Assembly (NCBI GenBank): GCA_016783965.1
Contig: JADHVO010000009.1
Location: 120,042 to 184,041 of the forward strand
From: Alphaproteobacteria bacterium
Lineage (GTDB): Bacteria > Pseudomonadota > Alphaproteobacteria > Micropepsales > Micropepsaceae
Reading direction: 5' to 3'
DNA length: 64,000 bases
Shown: positions 13,783 through 64,000 of the stretch, piece by piece
Numbering within the stretch: position 1 is the stretch's first letter
How the letters are laid out: each line of letters starts with the position of its first letter
Translations under genes and position numbers: made by a program
The notes under the pieces: model-generated
Told to the model about the DNA's origin: nothing
What the model saw: the letters and a program-made list of their open reading frames with translations, nothing else
Databases searched by the model: none

Positions 13783-13964
13783 ACTGTCTCGCTTCTTGAA
13801 CGACGCTTGCAAGAGAGACCGCTGGGCGCCCTTCACACCGCACTTTGGCGGTTCAATCGCCCAAGGGTACTATGATCTGTCCAAAATACCGCCCCGGACT
13901 TTGCAGGGCTATTGTTGACCGCAAGATGCACTACGATATTTCCGCCGAGACTACGACAAACTCT

Positions 13965-26276: not shown

Positions 26277-27419
26277 TTAATAGAATGCTTGGTGTAGCAG
26301 AGCCGGAATCAGACGAGCCAGCTCGCCCGCGACATCTGATTGACCGACATGGACACCGACGGCCTTCTGTTGGAGTTCATCGAACCAGAGTTGCGCGTCC
26401 AGAGACGGCGCGGGCACGACGATCGACTCTAAACCCTTGAGTCCGAGCGTGCGGTTGCGCCCTGCGCCGCCTGGCGAAGCAGCACCGAGACGCTCCGTCC
26501 CCTCCAATGTGAGAAAATAATAGAGAAGGAAATTGGACGTTGCGCGCCGAGGGTCGGGAACGCAGGTCAGGAACCTATGGGATCCTAAGCGGCCATGATC
26601 GGCCGCGCTCGCCACCGCGACCGCCCCCTCCCAAGCAAAGACAATATTAAAGAGTAGATCGCCCTCGTGAATTTCGAAAAGCCGTTTGCTGCCGACCTCA
26701 ATGCCCGAGAGTGATGGTTTTCGGAATGTCCCTTTGCCGAACGACCGCACGCCAAGTTCCGGGTAACTTCCGTCTGGATCAACTGCGATCGGTCGCCGCA
26801 CGAGCGGCGCAATGTCCATCATCGCGACGCGCGGAGCGCCTGCGATCACCTTCCGAAAAGCTGCCTCAATTGTTGCGTTGAGCTCCGCGCGCGCGGCATC
26901 GGCGGCCCGACGCATCGTCTTCAGTTGCGACGCCGCGCCGTCGAGCTTCGCAATGATCCGCCGTTGCTGCTCGATCGGAGGAAGGGGGATGGCGTGATCG
27001 AGGAGGCGCCTGGGATGCAGCCTCTCTCGGCGGGCGCCGATTCCCTTCCCGTCTGAGGCTAATTGCTGCCAGACTCGGTCCTGTTTGAAGTACCAGCCAA
27101 GGAATCCGGGCTCGAGTTGTTCATAATGCAGGTCGAAGGTCGGGAATTCGTTCGAGACGAAATACCCGTCCACCTCTGAAGAAACGATCGCATAAGCGCC
27201 TTCAAAAGACTTCAACCGGCTATAGATGAACTGGCCCGCCCGGATTCGAAACAACTGCGTGGCGGCCATCTCGCGTCCAGCGACCGCCGCGCGCTGAATC
27301 ATCCCGCGACCGAATCCATAGATGCCCGCGATCGGATACTCGCCGTCGGGCTCCACCCCGTGAGGCTCCGGCGCGTAGGTGAGGAGTTCACCCAGTGGGA
27401 TAAGAGGAAAGCTCGGCAT
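26277..27419 (-). CDS. hsdS: Type I R-M specificity subunit
   Basis: Two target-recognition halves; IPLPPIEQQRRIIAKLDGA; next to HsdM. Confidence 0.9.
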   Translation of the reverse strand: MPSFPLIPLGELLTYAPEPHGVEPDGEYPIAGIYGFGRGMIQRAAVAGREMAATQLFRIRAGQFIYSRLKSFEGAYAIVSSEVDGYFVSNEFPTFDLHYEQLEPGFLGWYFKQDRVWQQLASDGKGIGARRERLHPRRLLDHAIPLPPIEQQRRIIAKLDGAASQLKTMRRAADAARAELNATIEAAFRKVIAGAPRVAMMDIAPLVRRPIAVDPDGSYPELGVRSFGKGTFRKPSLSGIEVGSKRLFEIHEGDLLFNIVFAWEGAVAVASAADHGRLGSHRFLTCVPDPRRATSNFLLYYFLTLEGTERLGAASPGGAGRNRTLGLKGLESIVVPAPSLDAQLWFDELQQKAVGVHVGQSDVAGELARLIPALLHQAFY

Positions 27420-27422
27420 GAA

Positions 27423-28979: not shown

Positions 28980-28992
28980 TCACAGGTCTTTC

Positions 28993-31365
28993 CTAAGCGG
29001 CGTACAACAGGCCGGACATTTCGTTGACGGCGTCGCGAAGCTTGTCCGGGCCGCCGAAGCGGCGAGCGATCTCGCTCGGATTGCCGAACCCGGCCAGCGG
29101 CGGCACCTTCAAGATACCCGGCAGGACGAACTGTGCGGCGCCGTGCTCGGCGTATTTCTCGAGTAGCGCCTCCAGCACGGTCCGGGCATCGCCGCCATAC
29201 CGGTCGAAGAAATCCGTTCGATCTCGCTTGAGACGTTCGGCGCGTTCACGTCGCGTGCGGAGCGGCGCGTTCCAGGCGAGATGGCAAAGGAGATCGAACG
29301 GATCGTCCTCCGGCCGCCCGGCTTCTTCGGCCAGGCTCTCCAGGTCGATGCCCCGTTCAGCGAGCGCCTCGACGATCGCGTGGCGCTTGTCCGCTCGCAC
29401 CCAGTCGGCGCGGAAGCTTGCAGCGGTCGGATAGAGCGTGCGGACCTTCTCACCGGTCCAGTCCGTCAGCTTCTTGCAGGTCAGTCGTTTGCCGTCCGTA
29501 TCAAGTTCGTAGACCAGATGCGCCACCACTTCGACCGTGCCGCCATCGACGTAGAGTTTACGCGGTTCTCCGGGCTCCTCGTCGGGGGGAAGACCACCCT
29601 CGGTTTCCGTCTCGATCTCGTCCGGCGCCTCCGGCGCTGGATTTTCCTCTTCTTGGGTGGTGACGATCTCGCCCTCGGCGTCGATTTCCGTGATCGTCTC
29701 TACGGTCGGCTCACCATCGAAGTCCGGATCAGCGAATTTTTCAGTCGCGGTGCCGGTGTAGTCGAGGATGTTGAAGAACAGCTTGCCGTAGTCTTCACGC
29801 AGCCGGGTCCCGCGGCCGATAATCTGCTTGAACTCCGTCATTGAGCCGACCACGCGCGCCAGCACGACGTTCTTGCAGGTCGGCGCGTCGACACCCGTGG
29901 TGAGAAGCTGAGATGTCGTCAGGATCACCGGAACCTTCGTCTCGACGTCCTGGAAACGGCTGAGTTTGCCCTTGCCGATATCACCCTCATCGGCCGTCAC
30001 GCGGCAGGCATAGTCCGGATAATCCGCAACGAGATCGGCACTGAGATTGGCAAGGGCGCGACGCATCTCGCTTGCATGCTCTTGGTCCACGCAGAAAACG
30101 ATCGTCTTCGCGAAACGATCGGTCTGCGCGAGGAAATGCGTGAGGTGGCGCGCGATCGCCTCGGTGCGAGCGCGCAGCGCGACGACGCGCTCGAAATCCC
30201 TCGTGTGGTACTCATCGTCGGGAATCTCGCGCCCGAAGCGGTCCAGTTCGCCCTTGGTTGGTCTCCATCCCGCGGCATCATAGTCCGTGACGACACGATG
30301 TACGCGATAGGGTGCCAGGAAGCCGTCCGCGATACCTTGCGCCAGAGAGTAGGTATAAAGCGGCGCACCGAAATAGGCGTAGGTGTCCCGGTTGTCTTCC
30401 CTTAGTGGTGTCGCCGTCATGCCGAGTTGATAGGCCGGTTCGAAATACTCCAGGATTTCGCGCCAGCTGCTGTCGTCGCGCGCGCTGCCGCGATGGCACT
30501 CATCGATGATGATCAGGTCGAAGAAATCCGGCGCATATTCCCGATACAGACCCGGCCGTCGTTCGTCGCTGGCGATGGCTTGGTAGATCGCGAAATAGAT
30601 GTCGCGACCATGGCTGATCTCGCCATTCTCGATCTTGAAACGCGCGTCGCCGAAGGGCGCAAAGGTCTTGGCCATCGGGTCGTCGACGAGAATGTTGCGA
30701 TCGGCGAGGAACAGGATTTTGGGTTTGCGGAAGTCCCCGCGCTTGTTCCAACCGGCGGTCCACAGCCGCCAGGCGATCTGGAATGCCACCGCGGTCTTGC
30801 CGGCGCCGGTGCACAGCGTGAGCAGCGCGCGCCGCTGGCCGGTGAGAACCGCCTGAAGCGCGCGATTGACGGCGATCTCTTGATAGTAGCGCAGCGGCTT
30901 GGCGGGATCGGGAAACCCGGGCGCGAGCAGGCGCTCGGCGGCCGTGTCATCAGTCAGACCGACACCGACCCGTTGGCGCCCCCACAGCTCAGCGGGTGTC
31001 GGAAAATCGTGCCGTAGGGCTTCGCGTCCGGTGAGAAAGTCGAATTCGAGAATCTCCGCGCCGTTGGTCGCGTACGCGAATTTCAATCCAAGAATCTCGG
31101 CGTAGTCCTTGGCTTGCTGCAGACCGTCGGCGGCAGATTTGTAGGCAGCCTTCGCCTCGACGACCGCGATCGGGTAGTCGGCGCGGTAGCGCAGGATGTA
31201 GTCGGCACGTTTTTGCCGGCCGCGCTTCGCCTTACCACCGATGAAGATCACCCGGCCATCGGTGAAGGTCCGTTGTTCGTTGATAGAGTGAGGCGCGCCT
31301 TCCCAACCTGCCGTCTGCAGGCGCGGAACAACGGATTTCCGACAGGTATCCGCTTCAGTATTCAC
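28993..31365 (-). CDS. hsdR: Type I R-M restriction subunit
   Basis: LLTLCTGAGKTAVAFQ, IIIDECHRGSARDDSSW, IGRGTRLREDYGK; GTG start at 31365 overlaps the upstream stop. Confidence 0.92.
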   Translation of the reverse strand: MNTEADTCRKSVVPRLQTAGWEGAPHSINEQRTFTDGRVIFIGGKAKRGRQKRADYILRYRADYPIAVVEAKAAYKSAADGLQQAKDYAEILGLKFAYATNGAEILEFDFLTGREALRHDFPTPAELWGRQRVGVGLTDDTAAERLLAPGFPDPAKPLRYYQEIAVNRALQAVLTGQRRALLTLCTGAGKTAVAFQIAWRLWTAGWNKRGDFRKPKILFLADRNILVDDPMAKTFAPFGDARFKIENGEISHGRDIYFAIYQAIASDERRPGLYREYAPDFFDLIIIDECHRGSARDDSSWREILEYFEPAYQLGMTATPLREDNRDTYAYFGAPLYTYSLAQGIADGFLAPYRVHRVVTDYDAAGWRPTKGELDRFGREIPDDEYHTRDFERVVALRARTEAIARHLTHFLAQTDRFAKTIVFCVDQEHASEMRRALANLSADLVADYPDYACRVTADEGDIGKGKLSRFQDVETKVPVILTTSQLLTTGVDAPTCKNVVLARVVGSMTEFKQIIGRGTRLREDYGKLFFNILDYTGTATEKFADPDFDGEPTVETITEIDAEGEIVTTQEEENPAPEAPDEIETETEGGLPPDEEPGEPRKLYVDGGTVEVVAHLVYELDTDGKRLTCKKLTDWTGEKVRTLYPTAASFRADWVRADKRHAIVEALAERGIDLESLAEEAGRPEDDPFDLLCHLAWNAPLRTRRERAERLKRDRTDFFDRYGGDARTVLEALLEKYAEHGAAQFVLPGILKVPPLAGFGNPSEIARRFGGPDKLRDAVNEMSGLLYAA

Positions 31366-32393
31366 ATGGTCTCTCCACGTGGCCGCCTTGCTCGTCGCGT
31401 GCGTGGGGCCAGCGACTTGTCGCCAGATTTCCATGCTTTGACGTTCTGTGCTTTCCACCGCAGAGCCGGACTGGCTTCTATCGAGGCGCGCACGTTCTCC
31501 GGCGCCTCCAGAGCCGACGCGTCGATCTCGCCCCGGTCCAGCACGGCATCGAGAAATGCCCTCTCCCCCGCCGTGAACCGAAACAGCGACGCGAGCTTGT
31601 CCCGGCACTCGGCCGTGACGCTCTCGATCCAGGCTGCGGGACCACCGAAGGCGTCGAAATACCGGTCGTGCAGGCACATGGTCAGCTTGCCGGTGATGTC
31701 GCCGACCTCGCATCCGATCTCGTTTGGCGAGGCCGTGCGCCAGTCGAAGCTCTTGGCGCTCGCGCCGATCATCAAGGTGCCCGCCTTGATCTTCACCCAG
31801 TCGAGACCCGGCATGGCGACGATCCGGTGCGCATCGAACAGATCACGCGCCGTGCGTCGCGTGACCAGCGCGACCATCTTGCCGGCGACGATTTCATGGA
31901 TGTCGAGAACCGGCACGTTCGTGGCTCGGTAGGATCCGATTGTCGCCGAGGACATGCGGTCCACACCGTAGAGAGGGCCGCGGTAGAGATAGTTGATATC
32001 GATCTCGATGGTCCCCGCCCCACCTAGCGCGGAGGCATAACGGTAGATCCATTTGCCGCCGGCATGTTCGGACGGCTCACGCCGCGCGGCATAGCCTTTC
32101 GATTCCATCAAGCGCTCGATCCGGTCTTCCAATCCCGGCCGATCCGCATCCATCTGCTCCTTCTTGAGCGCCCCGACATAGTTGACGTCGATATCGACCG
32201 AGAGGCGGTCCAGATCGGAGTGGAAGACGTTGAGCGCCGTGCCACCCTTCAAAGCGATCCGCGGCCCGATCAGCGTGTCGGCACCGAACGCATCGAGAAT
32301 GTCAATCAGCCGGATCACCCGTTCGAGCGTCGCGGGTTGAAGCTGCCGCTCGGCCGCAAGATCGTGAAGCGTTTCCCGCGACGCGACCATCAC
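31362..32393 (-). CDS. AbiEii/AbiGii nucleotidyltransferase toxin
   Basis: IALKGGTALNVFHSDLDRLSVDIDVNYVG. Confidence 0.88.
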   Translation of the reverse strand: MMVASRETLHDLAAERQLQPATLERVIRLIDILDAFGADTLIGPRIALKGGTALNVFHSDLDRLSVDIDVNYVGALKKEQMDADRPGLEDRIERLMESKGYAARREPSEHAGGKWIYRYASALGGAGTIEIDINYLYRGPLYGVDRMSSATIGSYRATNVPVLDIHEIVAGKMVALVTRRTARDLFDAHRIVAMPGLDWVKIKAGTLMIGASAKSFDWRTASPNEIGCEVGDITGKLTMCLHDRYFDAFGGPAAWIESVTAECRDKLASLFRFTAGERAFLDAVLDRGEIDASALEAPENVRASIEASPALRWKAQNVKAWKSGDKSLAPRTRRARRPRGETM

Positions 32394-33202
32394 ACGCCCT
32401 CAAAAGCAGCGTCGACAGCCTGCCGCGGCAGAAGCACACGCCACGCCTCGACGAGCACTGCGTGACCAGGTTCGGCGCCCAGCGCGTAATGCTTTGATCG
32501 TGGAAGACGGCGCTGCAAGCGCGTCAGGACGTCGTCGGTGACACCGAGCGCCGAACGTCGCCTCTCAAGCCACCAACCGGAAACGGAAGCGAGCGACCGG
32601 TTGTCCAGCAGTTCGACATAGTCAGCGACTTTCACCGGATCGAGATAGCGCACCAGGTCTAGCGACTGCAGAACCTCCTCGACGCCGCCAGCGAGTTCCG
32701 GCCGGTGCAAGGCATCAACAACCGTGCGTTCAACAGCCGTCACACGGACTGCCACGCCCTGCCGATCCATAGTCATGGTCAGGTAGTCGGCCTTGCCGGC
32801 CGCAACCAAAGCCTTCGGCGGCGTGACGAAACGGCAAGCGCCAAATGGCAAATCCACGCGTTCGGTTCGCCCGGCGCTGATGAGCTGAACCTCGTTGAAC
32901 TCGGAATAGGCTATGCCATGCAGCTCAAGGGCTGAGTGAAACCCCAAGACGCCATCGGGGCGCAGCTTGCTCGCCGCGGTGAAGCGGTCGATCACCATCC
33001 GCTCCGCCGGCAGATGGGCGGGTACCGCGGCAAACACCTCGCGACTGACGCGCTTGATGTTGCCGGCCCGCAGATGATGCCGGAGCAGGCTCGTAACATT
33101 GGCCCCGCCCGCGGGGTGGCCGAAGGCCGCCGCGAACTCAGCCCGGGTGAACACCGGATGAGCCGACAGGAAACTGGCCGTTTTGTGTTGGCGAGGTTGC
33201 AT
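32390..33202 (-). CDS. AbiEi-family antitoxin
   Basis: N-terminal HTH-like FTRAEFAAAFGHPAG..., GVLGFHSALELHGIAY; 4-nt overlap with AbiEii. Confidence 0.82.
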   Translation of the reverse strand: MQPRQHKTASFLSAHPVFTRAEFAAAFGHPAGGANVTSLLRHHLRAGNIKRVSREVFAAVPAHLPAERMVIDRFTAASKLRPDGVLGFHSALELHGIAYSEFNEVQLISAGRTERVDLPFGACRFVTPPKALVAAGKADYLTMTMDRQGVAVRVTAVERTVVDALHRPELAGGVEEVLQSLDLVRYLDPVKVADYVELLDNRSLASVSGWWLERRRSALGVTDDVLTRLQRRLPRSKHYALGAEPGHAVLVEAWRVLLPRQAVDAAFEGV

Positions 33203-33235
33203 AGTGGATCTGTGATTCTGCGTCAAAGTGGGCAG

Positions 33236-33265
33236 TAAATAGCCATTCTGACGCATATTTGTCAA
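33236..33265 (-). promoter_or_regulatory. Candidate sigma70 promoter of the abiE-hsd operon
   Basis: Minus strand TTGACA-N18-TATTTA. Confidence 0.4.
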
Positions 33266-33430
33266 CAAAGTCCTCTCGGCGGACGAACCGCCGGTACCGT
33301 CCTATCAGTCGCGAAAAAAGTGCCGCACAGGGTATAAAATGCCCCTTCCAACGCATTTTCAAGAACAAAGCGACCCTACGCGTCATCGAACCCGTGGCCT
33401 CGACATAGGCCCCCGAATACGCAAGTCTGA

Positions 33431-50812: not shown

Positions 50813-51796
50813 ATGGCGGTTTCTCACCAGCAATCAGAGGCGATCCTTCGAGGCGCGCGCATGTTGCGCACGGCCCTCGGCCCCGCCATCGCCGGATTCC
50901 TGGAAGACCCGTCGATCGTCGAGGTGATGCTCAATCCCGACGGGCGGCTCTGGATCGACCGGCTGTCCGATGGACTTTCTGATACCGGAGCGCGCCTGTC
51001 GCCCGCGGACGGCGAGCGCATCGTCCGCCTCGTGGCGCATCATGTCGGCGCAGAAGTTCATTCCGGTTCACCGCGCGTGTCGGCGGAGCTTCCCGAGACG
51101 GGGGAGCGGTTCGAGGGCTTGCTGCCTCCGGTCGTGGCGGCCCCGGCGTTCGCAATCCGCAAGCCTGCCGTCGCCGTCTTCACACTCGCTGACTACGTCG
51201 CCGCCGAGATCATGTCGGCCGGACAGGCTGAGATCCTCAGCCGCGCCGTCGCGGACCGGCGCAACATCCTCGTCGCCGGGGGCACCTCCACCGGCAAAAC
51301 CACGCTCATCAACGCCTTGCTCGCCGAAGTGTCAAAGACCTGCGACCGCGTCGTGCTGATCGAGGACACGCGCGAGCTGCAATGCGCCGCGCCCAACCTA
51401 GTCGCCATGCGCACGAAGGATGGCGTCGCATCGCTCTCCGATCTCGTCCGCTCCTCGCTTCGCTTGCGCCCCGATCGCATTCCGATCGGAGAGGTGCGCG
51501 GCGCCGAGGCGCTGGATTTGCTCAAGGCCTGGGGGACGGGCCACCCGGGCGGCATCGGCACGATCCACGCCGGCACCGCGCTCGGCGCGCTGCGCCGCCT
51601 CGAGCAGCTCATTCAGGAAGCCGTCATCACCGTCCCGCGCGCGCTGATCGCCGAGACCATCGATCTCGTCGCCGTGCTCAGCGGCCGCGGCTCGACCCGT
51701 CGCCTCGCCGAACTCGCCCGCGTCAAGGGCCTCCAGTCTGACGGCGACTACCGCGTCATCCCCGCAACCCAACCTGCTTCAGGAGATTCCGCATGA
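50813..51796 (+). CDS. trbB: Conjugal transfer ATPase TrbB
   Basis: [69 protein letters not shown]. Confidence 0.95.
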
Positions 51797-52125
51797 TCCT
51801 CTATGCCTTACGTATTCGCCGTCAAATCGTGACCGCCGCGTCCGTCGCCGTCGTCAGCATGATGCTGGCCCCAGCAGCCCATGCCTCCGGCTCTTCGATG
51901 CCGTGGGAAGCGCCGCTGCAGTCCATTCTCGAATCCATCGAGGGACCTGTGGCCAAGATCATCGCCGTGATGATCATCATCATCACAGGTCTGACACTTG
52001 CCTTCGGCGACACATCAGGCGGCGCGCGGAAGCTGATCCAGATCGTCTTCGGGCTCAGCATCGCTTTCGCCGCGTCAAGCTTCTTCCTGTCGTTCTTCTC
52101 ATTCGGCGGCGGAGCGCTCGTCTGA
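51793..52125 (+). CDS. trbC: TrbC/VirB2 pilin
   Basis: SSMPWEAPLQSILESIEGPVAKIIAVMIIIITGLTLAFG. Confidence 0.92.
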   Translation: MILYALRIRRQIVTAASVAVVSMMLAPAAHASGSSMPWEAPLQSILESIEGPVAKIIAVMIIIITGLTLAFGDTSGGARKLIQIVFGLSIAFAASSFFLSFFSFGGGALV

Positions 52126-52406
52126 TGGCGAGCCTGATCGACAGCGCTGGCGACGTGCCAGGCTATGCCGTCCCGGTCCATCGCGCCCTCACCGAGCACA
52201 TCCTGCTCGGCGGCGCGCCGCGCTCGATCGCTATCCTTAACGGCACGCTGGCGGCGGCGCTCGGCCTTGGCCTGCGCCTCTGGCTGGTCGGCCTCGGGCT
52301 CTGGGCGATCGGGCATTTCGCGGCGGTGTGGGCGGCCAAACGCGATCCGCAGTTCGTCGACGTGGTGCGCCGCCACCTGCGCATCCCCGGCTTCTTAGGC
52401 GCGTGA
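52125..52406 (+). CDS. trbD: TrbD/VirB3 family
   Basis: VPVHRALTEHILLGGAPRSIAILNGTLAAALGLGLRLWLVGLGLWAIGHF; between trbC and trbE. Confidence 0.9.
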   Translation: MASLIDSAGDVPGYAVPVHRALTEHILLGGAPRSIAILNGTLAAALGLGLRLWLVGLGLWAIGHFAAVWAAKRDPQFVDVVRRHLRIPGFLGA

Positions 52407-52413
52407 GGTCCCA

Positions 52414-54852
52414 ATGATGAACCTCGCCGAATATCGCCGGACCTCAACCCGCCTCGCCGATTTCCTGCCCTGGGCTGCGCTCGCGGGCGAGGGCATCGTC
52501 CTCAATAAGGACGGCAGCTTCCAGCGCACCGCCAGGTTTCGTGGTCCCGACCTGGATTCCGCGGTGCCGGCCGAACTCGTGGCCGTCGCCGGCCGGCTCA
52601 ACAACGCCTTCCGCCGCCTTGGGTCGGGCTGGGCGATTTTCGTCGAAGCACAGCGCCATGGCGCCGGCGCCTATCCGCTGAGCCGCTTTCCCGAGGCGGC
52701 GTCGGCGCTGGTCGACGCCGAGCGCAAGGCCGACTTCGAGGAAGAGGCGTCGCACTTCGAGTCCAGCTACTTCCTGACCTTCGTCTACCTGCCGCCGGCC
52801 GAAGACGCCGCCCGCGCCGAGAGCTGGCTCTATGAAGGCAAAGCGGACAACAGTCTCGACCCGCATGAGGTACTGCGCGGCTTCGCCGATCGTACCGACC
52901 GCGTGCTCCAGCTCATCGAGACCTTCATGCCGGAATGCGCCTGGCTCGATGACGGCGAGACGCTGACTTATCTGCATTCGACCGTCTCGACCAAGCGCCA
53001 CCGCGTGCGGGTGCCCGAGACGCCGATGTATCTCGACGCGCTGCTAGCCGACCAGCCGCTCACGGGCGGGCTTGAGCCGCGCCTGGGCGACGCGCATCTG
53101 CGCATCCTGACCATCGTCGGCTTTCCGACCGCGACTACGCCCGGGCTGCTCGACGATTTAAACCGGCTCGCCTTTCCGTATCGCTGGTCGACGCGCGCGA
53201 TCCTGCTCGACAAGACCGACGCCACCAGGCTGCTCACCAGGATCCGCCGGCAATGGTTCGCCAAGCGCAAGAGCATCATGGCGATCCTGAAGGAGGTGAT
53301 GACCAACGAGGCGTCGGTGCTCGTCGACACCGATGCGGCGAACAAGGCGGCCGATGCCGACCTCGCGCTGCAGGAGCTCGGCGCCGACTATGCCGGTCAG
53401 GCCTATGTCACCGCGACGGTCGCCGTCTGGGACGCCGACCCTCGCATCGCGGCCGAGAAGCTGCGCCTGGTCGAGAAGATCGTTCAGGGCCGCGACTTCA
53501 CCGCGATGGCCGAGACGATCAACGCCGCCGACGCCTGGCTTGGCTCGCTGCCGGGCCATGTCTACGCCAACGTCCGGCAGCCGCCGATCTCGACGCTCAA
53601 TCTCGCCCACATGATTCCGCTGTCGGCGGTGTGGGCGGGGCCGGAACGGGACGAGCATTTTGGTGAGCCCCCCTTGCTTTACGGCAGGACCGAAGGCTCG
53701 ACCCCGTTCCGGTTTTCCCTTCATGTCGGCGATGTCGGCCACACGCTTGTCGTCGGACCGACCGGCGCCGGAAAATCCGTGCTCCTGGCGCTGATGGCGC
53801 TGCAGTTCCGGCGCTATCCCGGTTCACAGGTCTTCGCCTTCGACTTCGGGGGAAGCATCCGCGCGGCGGCGCTCGCCATGGGCGGAGACTGGCACGATCT
53901 CGGCGGCGGCCTGACCGAAGGCGCAACTGACAGCGTTTCGCTGCAGCCGCTCGCCGGCATCCACCACGTGCCGGAACGCGCGTGGGCCGCGGATTGGATC
54001 GTCGCGATCCTGCAGCGCGAGGGCGTGACGATCGCGCCGGAGGTGAAGGAATATATCTGGACGGCGCTGACCTCGCTGGCAAGCGCGCCCGTCGGCGAGC
54101 GCACCCTGACCGGACTCGCCGTCCTCCTTCAATCGAACGATCTCAAACAGGCGCTGCGGCCCTATTGCGTCGGGGGCGCCTATGGCCGGCTGCTCGACGC
54201 TGAGAGCGAGCATCTTGGCGAAGCCGTTGTGCAGGCGTTCGAGACCGAGGGCCTGATCGGCACCGCCGCCACGCCCGCTGTCCTCGCTTATCTCTTCCAC
54301 CGCATCGAGGACCGCCTCGACGGCAGCCCAACGCTGCTCATCGTCGACGAAGGCTGGCTGGCGCTCGATGACGAGGATTTCGCCGGCCAGCTCCGCGAGT
54401 GGCTGAAGACGCTCCGCAAGAAGAACGCGTCCGTCGTCTTCGCCACCCAATCGCTCTCCGACATCGACAGTTCCGCTATTGCGCCGGCCATTGTCGAGAG
54501 CTGCCAGACGCGGCTGCTGTTACCGAACGAGCGCGCGATCGAACCGCAGATCACCGCGATCTACCGCCGCTTCGGGCTCAACGATCGCCAGATCGAGATC
54601 CTCGCCCGCGCGATGCCGAAGCGCGACTACTACTGCAAATCCCGCCGGGGCAACCGACTCTTCGAACTCGGTCTGTCCGACGTGGCGTTGGCACTCTGCG
54701 CCGCCTCCTCAAAAGCCGATCAGGCCGCGATCGAGCGCGTCATCGCAGAGCACGGCCGCGAAGGTTTCCTGCCGGCCTGGCTGCGTCTGCGCGGCGTCGC
54801 CTGGGCCGCCGACCTCATCCCCAACCTCAATAACCTGGAGACCCAGCCATGA
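52414..54852 (+). CDS. trbE: TrbE/VirB4 ATPase
   Basis: VGPTGAGKSVLLALMALQF, LLIVDEGWLAL. Confidence 0.96.
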   Translation: MMNLAEYRRTSTRLADFLPWAALAGEGIVLNKDGSFQRTARFRGPDLDSAVPAELVAVAGRLNNAFRRLGSGWAIFVEAQRHGAGAYPLSRFPEAASALVDAERKADFEEEASHFESSYFLTFVYLPPAEDAARAESWLYEGKADNSLDPHEVLRGFADRTDRVLQLIETFMPECAWLDDGETLTYLHSTVSTKRHRVRVPETPMYLDALLADQPLTGGLEPRLGDAHLRILTIVGFPTATTPGLLDDLNRLAFPYRWSTRAILLDKTDATRLLTRIRRQWFAKRKSIMAILKEVMTNEASVLVDTDAANKAADADLALQELGADYAGQAYVTATVAVWDADPRIAAEKLRLVEKIVQGRDFTAMAETINAADAWLGSLPGHVYANVRQPPISTLNLAHMIPLSAVWAGPERDEHFGEPPLLYGRTEGSTPFRFSLHVGDVGHTLVVGPTGAGKSVLLALMALQFRRYPGSQVFAFDFGGSIRAAALAMGGDWHDLGGGLTEGATDSVSLQPLAGIHHVPERAWAADWIVAILQREGVTIAPEVKEYIWTALTSLASAPVGERTLTGLAVLLQSNDLKQALRPYCVGGAYGRLLDAESEHLGEAVVQAFETEGLIGTAATPAVLAYLFHRIEDRLDGSPTLLIVDEGWLALDDEDFAGQLREWLKTLRKKNASVVFATQSLSDIDSSAIAPAIVESCQTRLLLPNERAIEPQITAIYRRFGLNDRQIEILARAMPKRDYYCKSRRGNRLFELGLSDVALALCAASSKADQAAIERVIAEHGREGFLPAWLRLRGVAWAADLIPNLNNLETQP

Positions 54853-55610
54853 TCTTCCGTCGCTCACGCGCGGCGCTTCTTGCCGCGTCGATCCTTTCCG
54901 TCCCCGTGGCGATGTCGCCCCTGATGGTCCAGCCCGCGTCCGCGCAATGGATCGTCTACGACCCGACGAACTACGTGCAGAATGTTCTCTCCGCCGCTCG
55001 TGCCCTGGAGCAGATCAACAACCAGATCACCTCGCTTCAGAATGAAGCGACGATGCTGATCAACCAGGCGCGAAACCTCGCGAGCCTGCCTTACTCTTCG
55101 CTTCAACGCCTGCAACAGTCCGTGCAGCGGACGCAGCAACTCCTCGGCCAGGCGCAGCGCATCGCCTACGACGTCCAGCAGATCGACCAGGCCTTCACCT
55201 CCACCTACGGCAATGCGTCGATGTCTGCCTCCGATCAGCAGCTCGTCGCGCAGGCGCGCGAGCGCTGGCAGAACACGGTCGGCGGCTTGCAGGACGCTAT
55301 GCGGGTGCAGGCCGGCGTCGTCGGCAACATCGACACCAATCGCGCCGAGATGTCGGCGCTCGTCGGCCAAAGCCAGGGAGCGACCGGCGCCTTGCAGGCG
55401 GCGCAGGCCGGAAATCAGCTTCTCGCGCTTCAGGCCCAGCAGCTCGCCGACCTCACGGCCGTCGTCGCTGCGAACGGACGGGCGCAAGCGCTGACCGAAG
55501 CGGATCGTGCGGCGGCTGCCGAGCAGGGTCGCGAGCAACGCCGCCGCTTCCTGACGCCCGGCGTCGGCTATCAGCCGGGCAACGCCCGCATGTTTCCGAA
55601 TGACAACTAA
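54849..55610 (+). CDS. trbJ: TrbJ
   Basis: QWIVYDPTNYVQNVLSAARALEQINNQITSLQNEATMLINQARNLASLP. Confidence 0.93.
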   Translation: MIFRRSRAALLAASILSVPVAMSPLMVQPASAQWIVYDPTNYVQNVLSAARALEQINNQITSLQNEATMLINQARNLASLPYSSLQRLQQSVQRTQQLLGQAQRIAYDVQQIDQAFTSTYGNASMSASDQQLVAQARERWQNTVGGLQDAMRVQAGVVGNIDTNRAEMSALVGQSQGATGALQAAQAGNQLLALQAQQLADLTAVVAANGRAQALTEADRAAAAEQGREQRRRFLTPGVGYQPGNARMFPNDN

Positions 55611-55632
55611 GGCCCCTGAAGAGGATCGTGTC

Positions 55633-55929
55633 ATGGACGGCAAGCTCATGGCGCGCCTTGGCGCCGTCGTCTTCGTCGCCGTCGCCATCGCTGCGACGGC
55701 GATCGAGATGACCCGGAAAGAGGAAGAACCGCCCGCCCAGGCGTCGCGACCAAGCGAAGACACGCCGGTGGATCCTCTGCGCGAAGCGCAGCGGCGGTGC
55801 CAACTGCTTGGCGAGGCCGCCGTGCGCGATGCCGAATGCCTGCGAACCTGGGCCGAAACACGCGACCGATTCCTCGGCATTGCGCCCGCACCAACGCGGA
55901 CGCCGCCGCAGCATGACGACGGGCGGTGA
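55633..55929 (+). CDS. TrbK-alt entry-exclusion-like protein
   Basis: Short single-TM protein between trbJ and trbL; DPLREAQRRCQLLGEAAVRDAECLRTWAETRDRFLG. Confidence 0.8.
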   Translation: MDGKLMARLGAVVFVAVAIAATAIEMTRKEEEPPAQASRPSEDTPVDPLREAQRRCQLLGEAAVRDAECLRTWAETRDRFLGIAPAPTRTPPQHDDGR

Positions 55930-55932
55930 TCC

Positions 55933-57285
55933 ATGGGCGGCACCGGCGTCATCGACCAATTCCTAGAGGTCTTCACCCGCTACATCGACAGCGGTTTCGG
56001 CCTGCTCGGCGGCGAGGTGGCGTTCATAGCCACGACGCTGATCGTCATCGACGTGACGTTGGCCGCCCTGTTTTGGAGCTGGGGCGCCGACGACGACATC
56101 ATGGCGCGACTGGTCAAGAAGACGCTGTTCGTCGGCGTCTTCGCCTACATCATCGGCAACTGGAACAATCTTGCACGCATCGTCTTTGAGAGCTTCGCCG
56201 GGCTCGGCCTGAAAGCTTCGGGCACGGGGTTCACCGTCGAAGATCTCATGCGCCCCGGCCGTGTTGCGCAGACCGGGCTCGACGCCGGTCGGCCGCTGCT
56301 CGATTCCATCTCGAATCTGATGGGCTGGATCGCCTTCTTCGAGAATTTCATCCAGATCGTCTGCCTGCTGTTCGCCTGGGTTCTGGTGCTGCTTGCCTTC
56401 TTCATTCTCGCCGTCCAGCTCTTCGTTACCCTGATCGAGTTCAAGCTGACGACGCTCGCCGGCTTCGTGCTGATCCCGTTCGGGCTGTTCGGCAAATCGG
56501 CGTTCATGGCCGAACGCGTTCTCGGCAACGTCATCTCAAGCGGCATCAAGGTGCTGGTCCTCGCCGTCATCATCGGCATCGGCTCAACCTTGTTCTCCCA
56601 GTTCACCGCCGGCTTCGGCACTGAGGCGCCGACGATCGATCAGGCGATGGCGATCGTGCTCGCCGCGCTCTCGCTGCTCGGACTCGGGATCTTCGGCCCT
56701 GGCATCGCCAACGGCCTCGTCTCCGGCGGTCCGCAGCTCGGCGCCGGCGCGGCGGTCGGAACCGGGCTCGCCGCGGGCGGGGCTCTGGTCGCGGCCGGCG
56801 CGGCTGGTGGAATGGCCCTGCGCGGCGGCGCCGCTGCGCTTTCCGGAACTGCCGCTGCCGCTCGAGGGGGAGCGGCCCTGGCCGGTGGCGCCTCGACGGC
56901 CTACAGCCTCGGCGCTGCCGGCCAGTCGGGCGCGTCCGCCGTCGGGTCCGGACTCGGTGGCGTTGCTCGCGCCGCTGGCGCGGCCGCCACCTCACCGCTG
57001 CGCCGCACGGCCTCCAAGGCAGCAGACAGCATGAAGTCGAGCTTCTCAGAAGGCGCCAAATCCGCGTTCGCGGCGACCGGCGGCACATCGACCATGGGTT
57101 CGGTCGGCGCGAGCGCGTCCGAGGCTGCGCCGTCCGCGGCGGCTGACGGGCCGCCGGCGTGGGCCCAGCGGATGAAGCGCTCTCAGGCCTTGAGCCACGG
57201 TGTGACCGCGGCCGCCCATGCCGTGCGCAGCGGCGACAGCCACGGCGGCGGCTCTTCCATCAATCTCTCCGGAGGCGACCGCTGA
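55933..57285 (+). CDS. trbL: TrbL/VirB6
   Basis: Multiple TM segments, Gly/Ala-rich C-terminus, synteny. Confidence 0.93.
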   Translation: MGGTGVIDQFLEVFTRYIDSGFGLLGGEVAFIATTLIVIDVTLAALFWSWGADDDIMARLVKKTLFVGVFAYIIGNWNNLARIVFESFAGLGLKASGTGFTVEDLMRPGRVAQTGLDAGRPLLDSISNLMGWIAFFENFIQIVCLLFAWVLVLLAFFILAVQLFVTLIEFKLTTLAGFVLIPFGLFGKSAFMAERVLGNVISSGIKVLVLAVIIGIGSTLFSQFTAGFGTEAPTIDQAMAIVLAALSLLGLGIFGPGIANGLVSGGPQLGAGAAVGTGLAAGGALVAAGAAGGMALRGGAAALSGTAAAARGGAALAGGASTAYSLGAAGQSGASAVGSGLGGVARAAGAAATSPLRRTASKAADSMKSSFSEGAKSAFAATGGTSTMGSVGASASEAAPSAAADGPPAWAQRMKRSQALSHGVTAAAHAVRSGDSHGGGSSINLSGGDR

Positions 57286-57968
57286 TGTTCAAACGACCTT
57301 CTACTCACTACGGCAAAGCGCCAGAACCCGAGACACCTTATCAGCGCGCCGCCCAGGTCTGGGACGAGCGCATCGGCACCGCGCGCGTCCAGGCGAAGAA
57401 CTGGCGCTTCATGGCGTTCGGTTCGCTGCTTCTGTCCGCCAGCTTCGCGGCGGCGCTGGTCTGGCAATCGGCCCGCGGCACGATCGTGCCCTGGGTCGTG
57501 CAGGTCGACAAGCTCGGCCAGGCGCAGGCCGTGGCGCCAGCGGTCGCCGATTATCGCCCGACCGATCCCCAGATCGCCTTTCATCTCGCGCGCTTCATCG
57601 AGCAGGTCCGCTCGATTCCGTCCGACGCCATCATCGTCCGGCAGAATTGGCTACGCGCATACGATTTCACGACCGATCGCGGCGCGATGGCGCTCAACGA
57701 CTACGCGCGGTCGAACGACCCTTTCGCCAAGGTCGGTCGACAGCAGATCGCTGTCGACGTCTCCAGCGTTATCCGGGCGTCGCCCGACAGCTTCCGCGTC
57801 GCCTGGGTCGAACGCCGCTACGAGAACGGCCAGCTCGCCGAGACGACCCGTTGGACCGCCATCCTCACCATCGTCGTGCAGGTGCCTCGCAACGCCGATC
57901 GGCTGCGCGCCAACCCGCTCGGAATCTACGTCAATGCCATCAACTGGTCACGGGAGCTTGGGCAATGA
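57285..57968 (+). CDS. trbF: TrbF/VirB8
   Basis: KAPEPETPYQRAAQVWDERIGTARVQAKNWRFMAFGSLLLSASFAAALVWQS. Confidence 0.94.
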   Translation: MFKRPSTHYGKAPEPETPYQRAAQVWDERIGTARVQAKNWRFMAFGSLLLSASFAAALVWQSARGTIVPWVVQVDKLGQAQAVAPAVADYRPTDPQIAFHLARFIEQVRSIPSDAIIVRQNWLRAYDFTTDRGAMALNDYARSNDPFAKVGRQQIAVDVSSVIRASPDSFRVAWVERRYENGQLAETTRWTAILTIVVQVPRNADRLRANPLGIYVNAINWSRELGQ

Positions 57969-58990
57969 AGCCGTCTATCCGTAAAGCTGGAAACCCGGCT
58001 TCTCGCACTTCCGCATTTGCGGTTCTCCTCCTGTGGACATCGGCGCTCGCCGGCTGCGCCACAGCGAACAGGCCGCCGGAGATCTCTTATGATGATGCGG
58101 TGCCGGCGGCCCTGAGCGCCGATCCTCCTGCTCCCGTGCGGGTGGTCGAGCTGCCGCGACCTCTGCCGCTTCCTGGTCAGATGAAGCCTGTCGAACCATC
58201 CCGCGGCACACCCGAACCCACCGATCCGACCGCGCGCGTCAATCAGGCCAACGCCGCCGCGCGCGTGCAGCCGGTCCGCGACGGCTTCATCAACGCCATG
58301 CAGGTGTATCCCTATACGGGCGGCGCGCTCTATCAGGTCTACACCGCGGTCGGCCAGATCACCGACATCGCGCTTCAGCCGGGCGAGCAACTGGTCGGCT
58401 CCGGGCCGGTCGCTGCCGGCGACACTGTTCGCTGGATTATCGGCGACACGGTGAGCGGCTCGGGCGCGACCAGCCAAGTCCACATCCTGGTGAAGCCGAC
58501 CCGCGCCGAGCTGATGACCAATCTCATCATCAACACCAATCTGCGCACCTACCACATGGAGCTGCGCTCGACCGAACGCACCTATATGGCGTCGGTGTCC
58601 TGGCAGTATCCGCAGGACCAGCTCATCGCCCTGCGGCGCCAGAACGCACAAGCCGAGGCCGCCAGCCCGGTCGCCACCGGCATCGACCTCGCCAACATCA
58701 ACTTCCGATATGCGATCGAAGGCGACCGTGCGCCGTGGCGACCACTGCGCGCCTACGATGACGGCCGGCAGGTCTTCATCGAGTTCCCACGCGGGATCGG
58801 CCAGGGCGAGATGCCGCCGCTGTTCGTCGTCGGTCCAGAGGGCAACACCTCCGAGCTCGTGAATTACCGCGTCCGCGCCAACTACATGATCGTCGACCGG
58901 CTGTTCGCCGCCGCCGAGCTGCGCTTCGGCGCCGGCGACCGCCAGAAGCGCGTCCGGATCGTCCGCACCGATGGGAGGCCGGCGTCGTGA
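57965..58990 (+). CDS. trbG: TrbG/VirB9
   Basis: Lipobox LLLWTSALAGC; YQVYTAVGQITDIALQPGEQL; NLRTYHMELRSTERTYMASVSW. Confidence 0.95.
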   Translation: MKPSIRKAGNPASRTSAFAVLLLWTSALAGCATANRPPEISYDDAVPAALSADPPAPVRVVELPRPLPLPGQMKPVEPSRGTPEPTDPTARVNQANAAARVQPVRDGFINAMQVYPYTGGALYQVYTAVGQITDIALQPGEQLVGSGPVAAGDTVRWIIGDTVSGSGATSQVHILVKPTRAELMTNLIINTNLRTYHMELRSTERTYMASVSWQYPQDQLIALRRQNAQAEAASPVATGIDLANINFRYAIEGDRAPWRPLRAYDDGRQVFIEFPRGIGQGEMPPLFVVGPEGNTSELVNYRVRANYMIVDRLFAAAELRFGAGDRQKRVRIVRTDGRPAS

Positions 58991-60192
58991 GTGAGCCCGA
59001 ACCCCGGAAAGAGGAAGACGAGGCACCGCTGACCGGGTCGGCCAGCGATGCGGCCGCCCCGATGCGGCTGCGTGCCGAAGCGCCGCGCGTTACGCGGCTC
59101 TCACGCAAGGTGCTGGCCGGCATCGGTCTCGTCGCGAGCGTGGGCATTGGCGGCGCGCTCATCTATGCGCTCCAATCACGCGACGGCGGCAAGTCCGCCG
59201 AAGAACTCTATTCGACCGACAATCGCTCGACCGCTGACGGCCTTGCCGGATTGCCGCGCGATTACAGCAGTGTTCCCCAATTGGGTCCGCCGCTTCCCGG
59301 CGACCTTGGGCGACCCATCCTAGGCGCACAAAATCGTGGCCAGCCGTTGCCGAACCAGCCCAATCCCGGCCTCAGCGCGGAGGAGCAACGGCGCCTGCAG
59401 GAGATCGAAACGGCCCGCGTCAGCAGGCTTTTCAGCGGTACCGAGAATCGGCCTATGGCTTCGACGAGCCCCGGCGGCGCGACGATCGCGCCGCCACCGG
59501 CGCCGGACCTCACTGGCCTCGGCCTCGCGCCGCCACCCGCCACGCCATCGGCCCAGGATCGGCAGCTCGCATTCCTCAATGCGGCCGCCGATCGGCGCAC
59601 AGTCGCGCCGGATCGCGTCGCCGCGCCCGCGTCGCCTTACATCCTTCAGGCAGGCGCCGTGATCGCAGCGGCGCTCATCACGGGCATCCACTCGGATCTT
59701 CCAGGCCAGATCACGGCGCAGGTGACGGAGAATATCTACGACAGCCCAACGGGCCGCGTTCTTCTGGTGCCCCAAGGCACACGCGTGATCGGTCAATACA
59801 ACAACAGCGTTCAGTTCGGTCAGAGCCGCGTACTCTTGGTCTGGAACCGGCTGATCTTCCCGAACGGACGCTCCGTTGTGCTCGAGCGTCAGCCGGGCGC
59901 AGACGTCGAGGGCTATGCGGGCCTTAAAGATGGCGTCGATTACCATTGGTGGGATCTCGCGAAGGCGGCGGGCCTCTCGACACTGCTGAGCGTCGGCGCC
60001 GAGCTTGCCACCAATGACGACAACCGCCTGATCCAAGCGATCCGAAACGGCGGGCAGGACACCATTAATGATGCGGGCCAGCAGATCGTGCGCCGCCAGC
60101 TCAACGTCGCGCCGACGCTCACGATCCGGCCGGGCTTCCTCGTGCGCGTGATCGTTACGCGTGACCTGGTGCTCGAACCCTATGGAGGCTAA
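58987..60192 (+). CDS. trbI: TrbI/VirB10
   Basis: YILQAGAVIAAALITGIHSDLPGQITAQVTENIYDSPTGRVLLVPQGTRVIGQYNNSVQFGQSRVLLVWNRLIFPNG. Confidence 0.95.
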   Translation: MSEPEPRKEEDEAPLTGSASDAAAPMRLRAEAPRVTRLSRKVLAGIGLVASVGIGGALIYALQSRDGGKSAEELYSTDNRSTADGLAGLPRDYSSVPQLGPPLPGDLGRPILGAQNRGQPLPNQPNPGLSAEEQRRLQEIETARVSRLFSGTENRPMASTSPGGATIAPPPAPDLTGLGLAPPPATPSAQDRQLAFLNAAADRRTVAPDRVAAPASPYILQAGAVIAAALITGIHSDLPGQITAQVTENIYDSPTGRVLLVPQGTRVIGQYNNSVQFGQSRVLLVWNRLIFPNGRSVVLERQPGADVEGYAGLKDGVDYHWWDLAKAAGLSTLLSVGAELATNDDNRLIQAIRNGGQDTINDAGQQIVRRQLNVAPTLTIRPGFLVRVIVTRDLVLEPYGG

Positions 60193-60195
60193 CCG

Positions 60196-60450
60196 ATGGG
60201 CAAGCTAAAGCTCGGACCGCTCGAAGACGACAAGCCCGTAAAGATTTCGGTGGAGCTGCCCGCTGCTCTCCACCGCGATCTCCTTGCCTATGCGGAGATC
60301 CTGGGCCGCGAGACTGGGCAAGATGTTGAGCCCGCCAAACTGGTCGCGCCGATGGTCGCGCGCTTCATGGCGACGGATCGCGGGTTTGCGAAGATGCGCC
60401 AGGGTTCCCGCCCGCGACCGGCGGGCAGCGTTCCTCCAAAAGGCGAATGA
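60196..60450 (+). CDS. DUF2274 protein
   Basis: MGKLKLGPLEDDKPVKISVELPAALHRDLLAYAEILGRE; downstream of trbI. Confidence 0.88.
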   Translation: MGKLKLGPLEDDKPVKISVELPAALHRDLLAYAEILGRETGQDVEPAKLVAPMVARFMATDRGFAKMRQGSRPRPAGSVPPKGE

Positions 60451-61312
60451 AGTTTCGGAGCGCCGGATTCTCGTTGCCGTCTCGCCAATAGGCGCGATAG
60501 CCGATCCGGGTCGAGCCGTTGCCGTCGCGCGCTTCGCGGTAGACGACCCCGGCATAGCTGGCGCCCATGCAGGCCTCACACATCAAGCTGACGCCGCGAC
60601 CGGTGCCGACCAGGCTCTTGATATTCTCGGGACTGACATCATGCCGAACGACGTCAGGCAGGTCGCCGGGCGAAGACAGCTTTGCCACGAGTATGTCTTG
60701 GATCTCCGGGCCGGGATCGCGCTCGCTCAGCAAGAAGCGTTCGCGTTTCAGGTCCGTCCAATAGATAATCTCGTTCGCGGCCAGCGGATGGTCCTCGGGT
60801 AAAGCGACGATGACGCGCTCACTCCACAAGACCATCGAACGATTGCAATCCGAGGCGGGCTCCCCTGTGACGACAGCAATATCAATGGTGCCAATCTGAA
60901 TTCCATCAAACAAGCGCGAACGTGATCCTTCGATTGTGCTTATCTCGACCTGAGGAAAGCGGCGCCCGTACTCGATGAGACTCGCCCTGAGATTGCCGGC
61001 CGAGAGAGAGGTGTAGAAGCCGACTGTTAGATATCCGGCCTCGCCGCGGCCGACGGCCTTGGTTCCATCAATTACAATCTGCAATTCATCGAGAACCCGC
61101 CTAACACCGCAAAGAAAATCCCGGCCTGCCGCGGTCGGCTCCACTCCGCCATTGGTCCGCTCGAACAACTTGATCCCAAGTTGCTCCTCCAGATGCTTGA
61201 CCCTTCGACTGAGATTCGACTGTTTGAGGCCGAGCAAATCCGCCGCTTTGCGAAAGCTGCCACAGCGTTCTGCCGTTTCGGCATAACGGAGATGCTTGAA
61301 CTCAATAGCCAT
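60365..61312 (-). CDS. LysR-family regulator
   Basis: FKHLRYAETAERCGSFRKAADLLGLKQSNLSRRVKHLEEQLGIKLFERTNGGVEPTAAG; converges on and overlaps DUF2274. Confidence 0.92.
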   Translation of the reverse strand: MAIEFKHLRYAETAERCGSFRKAADLLGLKQSNLSRRVKHLEEQLGIKLFERTNGGVEPTAAGRDFLCGVRRVLDELQIVIDGTKAVGRGEAGYLTVGFYTSLSAGNLRASLIEYGRRFPQVEISTIEGSRSRLFDGIQIGTIDIAVVTGEPASDCNRSMVLWSERVIVALPEDHPLAANEIIYWTDLKRERFLLSERDPGPEIQDILVAKLSSPGDLPDVVRHDVSPENIKSLVGTGRGVSLMCEACMGASYAGVVYREARDGNGSTRIGYRAYWRDGNENPALRNFIRLLEERCPPVAGGNPGASSQTRDPSP

Positions 61313-61390
61313 AGTTACCGCGCGCACCGGTTAAGCGCCGAACTGACAATTGGCGTCTTGTTGAGATTTCCGCCTGGACATGAAGCATGA

Positions 61391-61621
61391 TCAAAACGGA
61401 CGTCGAGGATTGCGCAGCGCCTGGTCGATGACTGCTTGCGATCTCGCTCTTAAGAGCAAACCTAGGATCTCCAGATCATTCAGAAGGTGCACCGGGTCCT
61501 GATGTAGGGCCGTCCGCAACGCGCCCTTAAGCCACCCGCTCATGCCTGGGTGCGCCAATACCCATTCGATCTGTCGCTCAGCCTCGCTCAGCTCATCACC
61601 GGACAGCTCGGATATGCCCAT
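61391..61621 (-). CDS. Small protein of unknown function
   Basis: MGISELSGDELSEAERQIEWVLAHPGMSGWLKGALRTALHQDPVHLLNDLEILGLLL; directly downstream of the DUF6671-like gene, same strand. Confidence 0.6.
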   Translation of the reverse strand: MGISELSGDELSEAERQIEWVLAHPGMSGWLKGALRTALHQDPVHLLNDLEILGLLLRARSQAVIDQALRNPRRPF

Positions 61622-61648
61622 TCGAACCTCCTTTCCCCGGTCCATGCG

Positions 61649-62512
61649 TCACGGGTTGCAGTCGCTGCATTGCCCAGGATCCGCGGTTGTTGGTGGCACC
61701 AAATTCTCGATCCGGTGGCCACAGGCCGAGCACGACAGCACCTCCGCCCTGATCGCCAAGGTCGGCCCGCCGCACCATGAACAAGGCAGACCGGCGAGGC
61801 GTTCGGTCACGGCGAACCCGGGCGCTGCGCAAACTGGACACGGGCTGCGGAACCGGCGGACCAGATCGAGGGTCGCGCGCTTGATGGCGCGCATGCGCGT
61901 CGGATTACGATGCGCGCGCATGTCGGTCTCGACAAAAGCGGCGCCGCACATCCCGATGACCTTCGTCACGGCGTATTCGAGGTCTTCCGTGTTCCGGATA
62001 TCCTTGATCAGGGCGCGGGCCGGCGCCGGCTGGCCGTCGATGACGCCCATGACGATCACGCCGTGCTCAGGGAACTGCGCGCGCTCCGCGAAAGCGCGTG
62101 CCGCACCCACGTCCGACACAACCGCATGGCTGAAGTTCGTGGTCGGACTCGCATGATGCCCGATCAGTTCGAGGCCGGAGGCGCGGTCGGCGAGAACGAC
62201 GATTTCACGGGCAAGCGGGAGGAATGGAATATACGGGTGCGGACCGAAAGTGCCTTCGCTGGCCAACGCCACCTGGGCATCGGGCGTGTCCGCGAACGCT
62301 GCCGCGATCTTGGCCCGCGCCGCATCGAGCTGCGAGCCGGTCCGCTCGACGTCCCGGCTGAAGGTGCCGAAGCGGTCGGTATCGATGCCATTGCTCACCC
62401 TGACCCGCAGGCCAAGCGCGCGCTCCAGCAACGGCGCGATCACCCGCTCCTTGGCGTGCATCGTCGCGAGCACCGCCAGTTCGTGGTCGTAGGGGCGTGG
62501 AGCAGCCGACAT
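61649..62512 (-). CDS. DUF6671-like protein with C-terminal zinc-ribbon Cys pairs
   Basis: LATMHAKERVIAPLLERALGLRV...GTFSRDVERTGSQLDAARAK...LASEGTFGPHPYIPF; CPVC...CSWCG...CSACG...CSDC. Confidence 0.7.
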   Translation of the reverse strand: MSAAPRPYDHELAVLATMHAKERVIAPLLERALGLRVRVSNGIDTDRFGTFSRDVERTGSQLDAARAKIAAAFADTPDAQVALASEGTFGPHPYIPFLPLAREIVVLADRASGLELIGHHASPTTNFSHAVVSDVGAARAFAERAQFPEHGVIVMGVIDGQPAPARALIKDIRNTEDLEYAVTKVIGMCGAAFVETDMRAHRNPTRMRAIKRATLDLVRRFRSPCPVCAAPGFAVTERLAGLPCSWCGGPTLAIRAEVLSCSACGHRIENLVPPTTADPGQCSDCNP

Positions 62513-62514
62513 GG

Positions 62515-63420
62515 CTAGAAATACCCCTCGCGCTTTTTCTGTTCGAGCGAGCCGCCGTCCTCGCCGTCGCTGATCCGGCCCTGCCGTTCCGACCCGGTCG
62601 CCGCCATCGTCTCCTGCACGACGGAGCGGAGGTCCGCCGCTTCGGATTCGACCGCAGCCGTTACCGGCCAGCAGCCAAGCGTCCGAAAACGCACAGTCTT
62701 GGTTTGGACGGTTTCGCCGGCCAGCAGCCGGATGCGGGGTTCGTCATCGACGACGATCAGCCCGCCGCCCCTCTCGACAACCGGCCGGGGCGCGGCGAAA
62801 TACAGCGGCGCCAGCGCGATGTCATGGACGAGCGCATAGGTCCAGACGTCCGTCTCGGTCCAGTTCGACAGCGGGAATACCCGCGCCGACTGATCCTTGC
62901 CGAGCCGGGTGTTGTAGAGATTCCAGAGCTCGGGCCGCTGTTGGCGCGGATCCCAGACATGGCCGGCGCTCCGAACTGAAAATACCCGCTCCTTGGCCCG
63001 CGACTTCTCTTCGTCGCGGCGCGCCCCGCCGAAGATAAAGTCATAGCCGCCCTGGTCGAGCGCGGCTTTGAGCGGCTCGGTGCGCATCTCCAGCGTATAG
63101 CGGTCGCCATGATCGAAGGGGTTGAGGCCGGCGGCGCGACCCGCCTCGTTGGCATGGACGATCAGCACGAACCCATGCTCGCGCGCGAAGCCGTCGCGGA
63201 AGTCGAGCAGCGACCGGAACTCCCAGGTGGAGTCGATGTGGAGCAGCGGGAACGGAGGCCTTCCTGGGAAGAACGCGCGCAAGGCGAGGTGGGCGAGCAC
63301 GGTCGAGTCCTTGCCGGCCGAGAACAGCATCACCGGCTTGCGCGCTTCGGCGACGGCTTCTCGCAGGATGTGGATCGCCTCCGATTCCAGTCGAGCGAGG
63401 TGGGACAGCCTTGCGGTCAT
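62515..63420 (-). CDS. cysD: Sulfate adenylyltransferase subunit 2 (CysD)
   Basis: [52 protein letters not shown]...[21 protein letters not shown]...[14 protein letters not shown]...[17 protein letters not shown]. Confidence 0.93.
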
Positions 63421-64000
63421 GCGGCGGCTTCCCATTGAAGACCGCCGACGTAGCGGCGGATCATCCGGCCTTCGTCGGCAAGAACGAAGAGGTGAACCCA
63501 GCCGTTATCGACGAGATGACGAACGCTCGCGTGCTTCTCGATGACGCCGTTGATCGCGTCCTCGGGGGCTGCGATGAAGACGTTGAGCCGCAGCGGCTCG
63601 TGCACGAAGCGCTCACCGTCGTGAACCGACTGCCACGGCAATCCCACCTTGAGGTCGCCGGAATTGCCCTCCAGCACCCCCAGCTGCCCGACCACATTGT
63701 GCAGCACCTTGTTGCCGCTGCCGAAGGCGCGGTTGTTCACCGTCGAGCCGTAATATTGCAGGTTGATCCAGCTCGCGACGACCATCGGCGCGGTCATGAT
63801 CAGCTCGAGCACGCCGAACCCGTCGTCCTTGCGCCAGTCATAGTCGTGCAGGAAGGCGCGACCGCCGAGATCGAGCCCGCGCGTCCGTGACCGCGGCGCG
63901 GCGATGAAGGCGGCGTTGCCCGCGAGCCCCCATTCGGGACGGACCTGCGCCCAGTCGCGGCTACGCGCCTTCACCGCACGATCAACGTCCCTGGTCTTGT
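63417..64000 (-). CDS. dabA: DabA-like (DUF2309) inorganic carbon transport protein, C-terminal part
   Basis: [36 protein letters not shown]...[53 protein letters not shown]; frame continues upstream past the window edge. Confidence 0.8.

Follow-up and report, generated by a model that had tools for sequence, protein, structure and literature searches.

A dabB-dabA-cysD-DUF6671 operon beside a conjugation cluster in a Micropepsaceae genome: a probable mobile carbon-uptake cargo with a predicted ITPase-fold accessory

The window, i.e., the whole stretch of DNA analysed here (64,000 nucleotides), ends where contig C2 of this alphaproteobacterial genome ends. A preliminary description had placed four tightly spaced minus-strand genes at this end followed by a LysR gene on the same strand, and both the genes and their spacings proved correct. 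The features, with the neighboring conjugation cluster, are:

63417..64000, minus strand: 3' part of dabA, encoding the C-terminal 193 aa (PF10070, E 4.9e-92); the remainder is on contig C8 (locus L004, about 1-2114)
62515..63420, minus strand: cysD-like gene of the DAB-linked subfamily, without cysN (TIGR02039, 421 bits; PRK12563, 440 bits; 1zun_A, E 3e-111)
61649..62512, minus strand: DUF6671 gene (PF20376, E 1e-50)
61391..61645, minus strand: small ORF conserved in relatives (likely start 61621, 76 aa)
60365..61327, minus strand: downstream LysR regulator (PF00126 and PF03466; likely ATG start 61312)
50813..60450, plus strand: trb-type conjugation cluster, from a TrbB-like ATPase to TrbI and DUF2274 (PF00437, PF19044, PF04610, PF03743, PF10038)

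The dabA stop and the cysD start overlap as ATGA, and 2 nt separate cysD from the DUF6671 gene. The next part of the region lies on C8 of the same genome; the two contigs share an exact 139-bp overlap, the first bases of C8 being the last 139 of the window, and joining them gives an uninterrupted DabA of 852 aa, a DabB of 541 aa, and a divergent NhaR-like LysR gene. Judged by alignment, the join is very likely genuine since the relative L020 spans the C2-C8 junction in a single 6.9-kb alignment (92.9% identity) that runs from DUF6671 to the LysR gene divergent from dabB. The complete operon order is dabB-dabA-cysD-DUF6671-small ORF with a second LysR gene downstream, and the earlier assignment of DabA to a DAB pair was borne out by the dabB found just upstream of dabA, on C8 beyond 64 kb.

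The same gene order recurred in many alphaproteobacterial contigs and plasmids. Every close relative compared has the dabA-cysD overlap, as ATGA or GTGA, and ATGA persists even in a Mesorhizobium plasmid with just 48% DabA identity, while the remaining divergent loci have a short gap and no overlap. The preliminary description had regarded cysN and other assimilatory sulfur genes immediately upstream, or a lack of conserved DUF2309-CysD-DUF6671 co-occurrence, as speaking against its reading; no cysN lies there, and gene-neighborhood comparison identified the co-occurrence as conserved across genomes and plasmids. Chance can be excluded because the operon genes are conserved, with dN/dS values of about 0.08-0.12 for cysD (strong purifying selection), 0.14-0.17 for DUF6671, and, from a single pair with L015, 0.26 for the small ORF; the latter two are likewise under purifying selection.

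Both components of a DAB complex were present, namely DabA (PF10070) and a NuoL-like DabB partner that exceeds the NCBIfam PRK08168 cut-off (393.5 bits vs 380). DabA aligned over 817 residues with DabA2 of Halothiobacillus neapolitanus (PDB 9rd0; E 1e-197) and is identical to it at C351, H524, C539, D353, R355, and E444. In DabA2, Cys351/His524/Cys539 make up the zinc site, Asp353-Arg355 the dyad, and Glu444 is the finger residue (PMC13144422). Retention of all six residues suggests that the complex encoded here is likely functional. The region between the upstream LysR gene and dabB contains a conserved CTTTGTATTATNAAGAA-like block, plausibly a putative LysR site, and the downstream LysR gene was kept at the equivalent place in L022, L023, L024, L025, and L037 (83-89% identity).

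CysD scored 421.3 bits against NCBIfam TIGR02039 (cut-off 396.6) and is full length relative to 1zun, retaining the PP-loop, the other core motifs, and the C-terminal KKREGYF-type motifs. Comparison of 15 DAB-linked with seven CysN-linked CysDs revealed fixed differences, including a one-residue deletion in the DAB-linked proteins at the HGSxxHT segment of the canonical ones, by which the former are a distinct subfamily at the sequence level. The earlier observation that cysD stands without cysN held for the operon and for the genome (estimated 100% complete), in which no CysN exceeded the cut-off and neither Sat nor a second CysD was found. CysH (contig C3) and a CysI-like protein of the two-domain sulfite/nitrite-reductase family (583 aa; contig C11) are present, and the assimilatory sulfate gene set is incomplete. 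Many genus mates carry a canonical CysDN pair; four other sampled genus mates are without CysN over the cut-off yet have a CysH-like match. An orphan CysD in a genome that lacks both cysN and sat while keeping cysH and a CysI-like gene offers a sharp test of whether the protein acts alone or has another job. In a literature search, DUF2309 was not mentioned together with sulfate adenylyltransferase, and nothing relevant on DabA with CysD was retrieved.

The DUF6671 protein scored 173 bits against PF20376 (gathering cut-off 23.8), and its AlphaFold2 model has a mean pLDDT of 90. A Foldseek search with the N-terminal region gave YjjX as the top three matches (E 3.4e-4 to 8.4e-4), followed by human ITPA, HAM1-type, and Maf proteins, with modest TM-scores (<=0.59 by target length). 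At the profile level, no YjjX/ITPase-type Pfam family appeared at E<=5, hhalign against Escherichia coli YjjX was not significant (E 0.07-0.08), and solved structures gave weak Zn-ribbon matches only; a viral fold library added little. H19, K21, T45, D46, G49, F51, R57, K68, E86, E103, D197, R199, and N203 were invariant in 52 DUF6671 sequences, and the C-terminal region holds eight conserved cysteines in CxxC-like pairs. DUF6671 is consequently predicted to combine an ITPase/YjjX-like N-terminal fold with an eight-cysteine zinc-ribbon region, so that the earlier label of a Zn-ribbon protein stood for the cysteine-rich part and was too narrow for the whole. The fold match, with the invariant residues, suggests that it is likely an enzyme acting on a nucleotide. 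Phage records contained no DUF6671 match and the family was not named in the literature searched.

For the small ORF, an AGGAGG upstream of 61621 makes this the likelier start. The ORF was conserved among 17 aligned relatives, and the AlphaFold2 model of its product has three helices (pLDDT 85) and found no match in a structure search.

The strongest lead from this analysis is DUF6671, whose link to inorganic-carbon uptake extends far outside the dabA-cysD operon. Within 5 kb of DUF6671 at 57 loci, DabA was identified at 33 (not an unbiased rate, many loci having been gathered by similarity to the window protein), SbtA at 6, CysD and the small ORF at 23 each, IlvD at 8, PyrC and TerC at 6 each, and TsaC at 5. 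An even sample of 385 genomes of the class gave DabA in 7/13 genomes with DUF6671 vs 40/372 without (Fisher p 2.6e-4). About half of the DUF6671 genes in the own-genome and class samples had no carbon-uptake gene within 5 kb. SbtA is a neighbor of DUF6671 in three genomes and in plasmids of Arthrobacter, a SulP permease gene directly follows dabA-DUF6671 once only (L064), and a different genus of the phylum (L081 and L082) has a DUF6671-CysD operon facing DabA/DabB. SbtA, SulP, and DAC are the recognized types of non-ABC inorganic-carbon transporter (PMC10880623). The hosts of DUF6671 with carbon-uptake genes include alphaproteobacteria, other Pseudomonadota, and actinobacterial plasmids. Most bacteria, autotrophic or not, need a bicarbonate supply, and DUF6671 provides a concrete candidate for a regulator or helper of DAB-type complexes: it is conserved, predicted to be an enzyme, and travels with DAB, SbtA, and once SulP.

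Two further neighborhoods were observed. Divergent DUF6671 genes in L065, L066, L067, L068, and L069 have no carbon-uptake gene nearby, and three of these loci share a peptide-transporter-like neighborhood. A Sua5/TsaC-type threonylcarbamoyl-AMP synthase, an enzyme that uses bicarbonate, recurs near DUF6671 in L082 (7362-8303), L084, L038, L046, and L081.

The linkage could be shuffled mobile-element cargo in which DAB, CysD, and DUF6671 are functionally unrelated, as might be expected of an operon that abuts conjugation genes, has widely varying neighbors, and occurs as near-identical islands in distant taxa (L015/L016 and L020/L021). The 52-sequence DUF6671 tree makes this unlikely: its contexts require 20 changes, of which supported branches force at least seven for DAB+CysD and three for SbtA, showing that the association with carbon uptake arose several times independently, and in divergent forms. 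It also extends to different transporter families, involves overlapping starts, and appears in the even genome sample. The island pairs themselves, L020/L021 from Sphingomonas and Bradyrhizobium records and L015/L016 from Bradyrhizobiaceae and Hyphomicrobiales MAGs, have equal coordinates and identities within each pair and reflect either recent transfer or record contamination. Several records bear host names that suggest cold sites, mine/acid sites, and SCN-named bioreactor bins, which may be sampling only.

The preliminary description had further proposed that CysD and the DUF6671 protein are partners or regulators of the DAB complex, or that the genes form a new cation-coupled system; neither proposal found support. 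In its direct form, the first would have CysD make and DUF6671 remove an adenylyl nucleotide (or CysD modify a protein), tuning DabAB, much as the nucleotide-binding SbtB tunes SbtA. The conserved dabA-cysD translational overlap, the separate DAB-linked CysD subfamily with its fixed differences and one-residue deletion at the HGSxxHT segment, the genome without CysN or Sat, and the nucleotide-hydrolase-like fold of DUF6671 would all fit such control. It is nevertheless judged improbable, given that many DAB-DUF6671 operons have no CysD (e.g., L027, L032, L035, L042, L045, and L047), that CysD has the core motifs of an ATP sulfurylase, and that CysD-CysN directly precede DUF6671 in the L024 and L025 islands with no DAB nearby. 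The broader claim that CysD without CysN forms with DUF6671 an adenylyl-nucleotide switch (or a new adenylylation) that controls or supports DAB, DUF6671 being a general regulator of inorganic-carbon uptake, likewise has a low probability. CysD-CysN also lie a few kb from DUF6671 on a Pseudomonas plasmid (L046), and because the pair occurs by DUF6671 in all three of these loci, the association of CysD is broader than with DAB alone; the idea of a DAB-specific CysD is weakened by the two islands without DAB. Since DUF6671 adjoins DAB without CysD and CysD-CysN islands without DAB exist, CysD resembles less a DAB subunit than a member of a group of spare biosynthetic enzymes, IlvD, PyrC, FolC, and TsaC among them, that seem to be interchangeable.

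The earlier placement of the operon beside a conjugative element was confirmed, the carbon-uptake cargo abutting the Trb-type cluster, and a relaxase and a coupling protein were also present. On the minus strand at window 26277-31713 and 32390-33268, the same element carries type I restriction-modification genes (specificity, methyltransferase, and restriction subunits) and an AbiEi antitoxin-like gene, and the window (18258-23204, minus strand) contains a complete QatABCD anti-phage defense system:

21252-23204, minus strand: QatA
20368-21255, minus strand: QatB
19019-20368, minus strand: QatC
18258-19022, minus strand: QatD

A second DUF6671 copy was identified on C8 (L004, about 4771-16033) with pyrC (class TIGR00856), ilvD, and folC, a partial second pyrC at 10715-11488, and, further along the contig, pyk, TerC/Alx, and a universal stress protein gene. 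This neighborhood, seen also on several plasmids (TerC/Alx, universal stress protein, IlvD, PyrC), might indicate an island for general stress or metal tolerance that carries spare Fe-S and Zn enzymes and supplies bicarbonate only as a side role. TerC is near only 6/57 DUF6671 loci vs 39 with DabA or SbtA, and the compact DAB operons contain none of TerC/Alx, the universal stress protein, IlvD, and PyrC, leaving this explanation very unlikely. Zinc starvation as an explanation was dropped, none of FolC, CysD, and IlvD being a zinc enzyme. Other genomic copies exist for ilvD (C12, 69%) and folC (C7, 48%), and because the chromosome has these, the island genes are spares; replacement of lost chromosomal genes was ruled out for these two only. 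For cysD, replacement of a lost chromosomal gene might still apply, no canonical cysDN being encoded in this genome. The literature search retrieved nothing relevant on spare pyrC/ilvD/terC sets, and a paper on bicarbonate depletion in Staphylococcus aureus is silent on cys, ilv, sulfur, and folate genes.

On balance, the locus is probably a mobile DAB-type carbon-uptake system that travels on a conjugative element together with spare enzymes of biosynthesis and an accessory predicted to have an ITPase fold. The operon would be cargo of the element, with the NhaR-like LysR divergent from dabB probably switching on dabB-dabA. DabAB would then probably hydrate CO2 to bicarbonate in the cell, with the membrane potential as the driving force, as it is for the DAB2 complex, if DabAB is active in this host. 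CysD, DUF6671, and the small protein would be co-transcribed accessories; of these, CysD most likely retains ATP-sulfurylase-type chemistry and belongs to a spare set with IlvD, PyrC, FolC, and TsaC, while DUF6671, most likely a nucleotide hydrolase, would be the most general tie to bicarbonate supply. The islands appear to shuffle spare biosynthetic enzymes, and the preferred account leaves unexplained why sulfate-activation, branched-chain, pyrimidine, and folate enzymes travel with carbon uptake.

Among known systems, the dabB-dabA pair with the DabA2 zinc ligands, Asp-Arg dyad, and Glu444 resembles the DAB/DAC complexes (DabA2-DabB2 of H. neapolitanus and MpsAB of S. aureus), but here it forms a single operon with the genes for CysD, DUF6671, and a small protein, next to an NhaR-like LysR gene and on a conjugative element. 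The full-length CysD with its PP-loop and C-terminal KKREGYF-type motifs is like that of the CysDN ATP sulfurylase (1zun), from which the locus differs by having no CysN in the operon or genome, the subfamily residues and one-residue deletion, and the coupling to dabA. The YjjX/ITPase/HAM1/Maf nucleotide hydrolases are the nearest Foldseek folds to the DUF6671 N-terminal region and share conserved K, E, and D residues, whereas the DUF6671 motifs TMHxKE, SEGSFGPHP, and ETDMRAHxNPxRM and the extra Zn ribbons set it apart, and sequence similarity is not significant. SbtA (Sbt_1) and SulP are, like DabA, neighbors of DUF6671 elsewhere, although neither gene is within this window.
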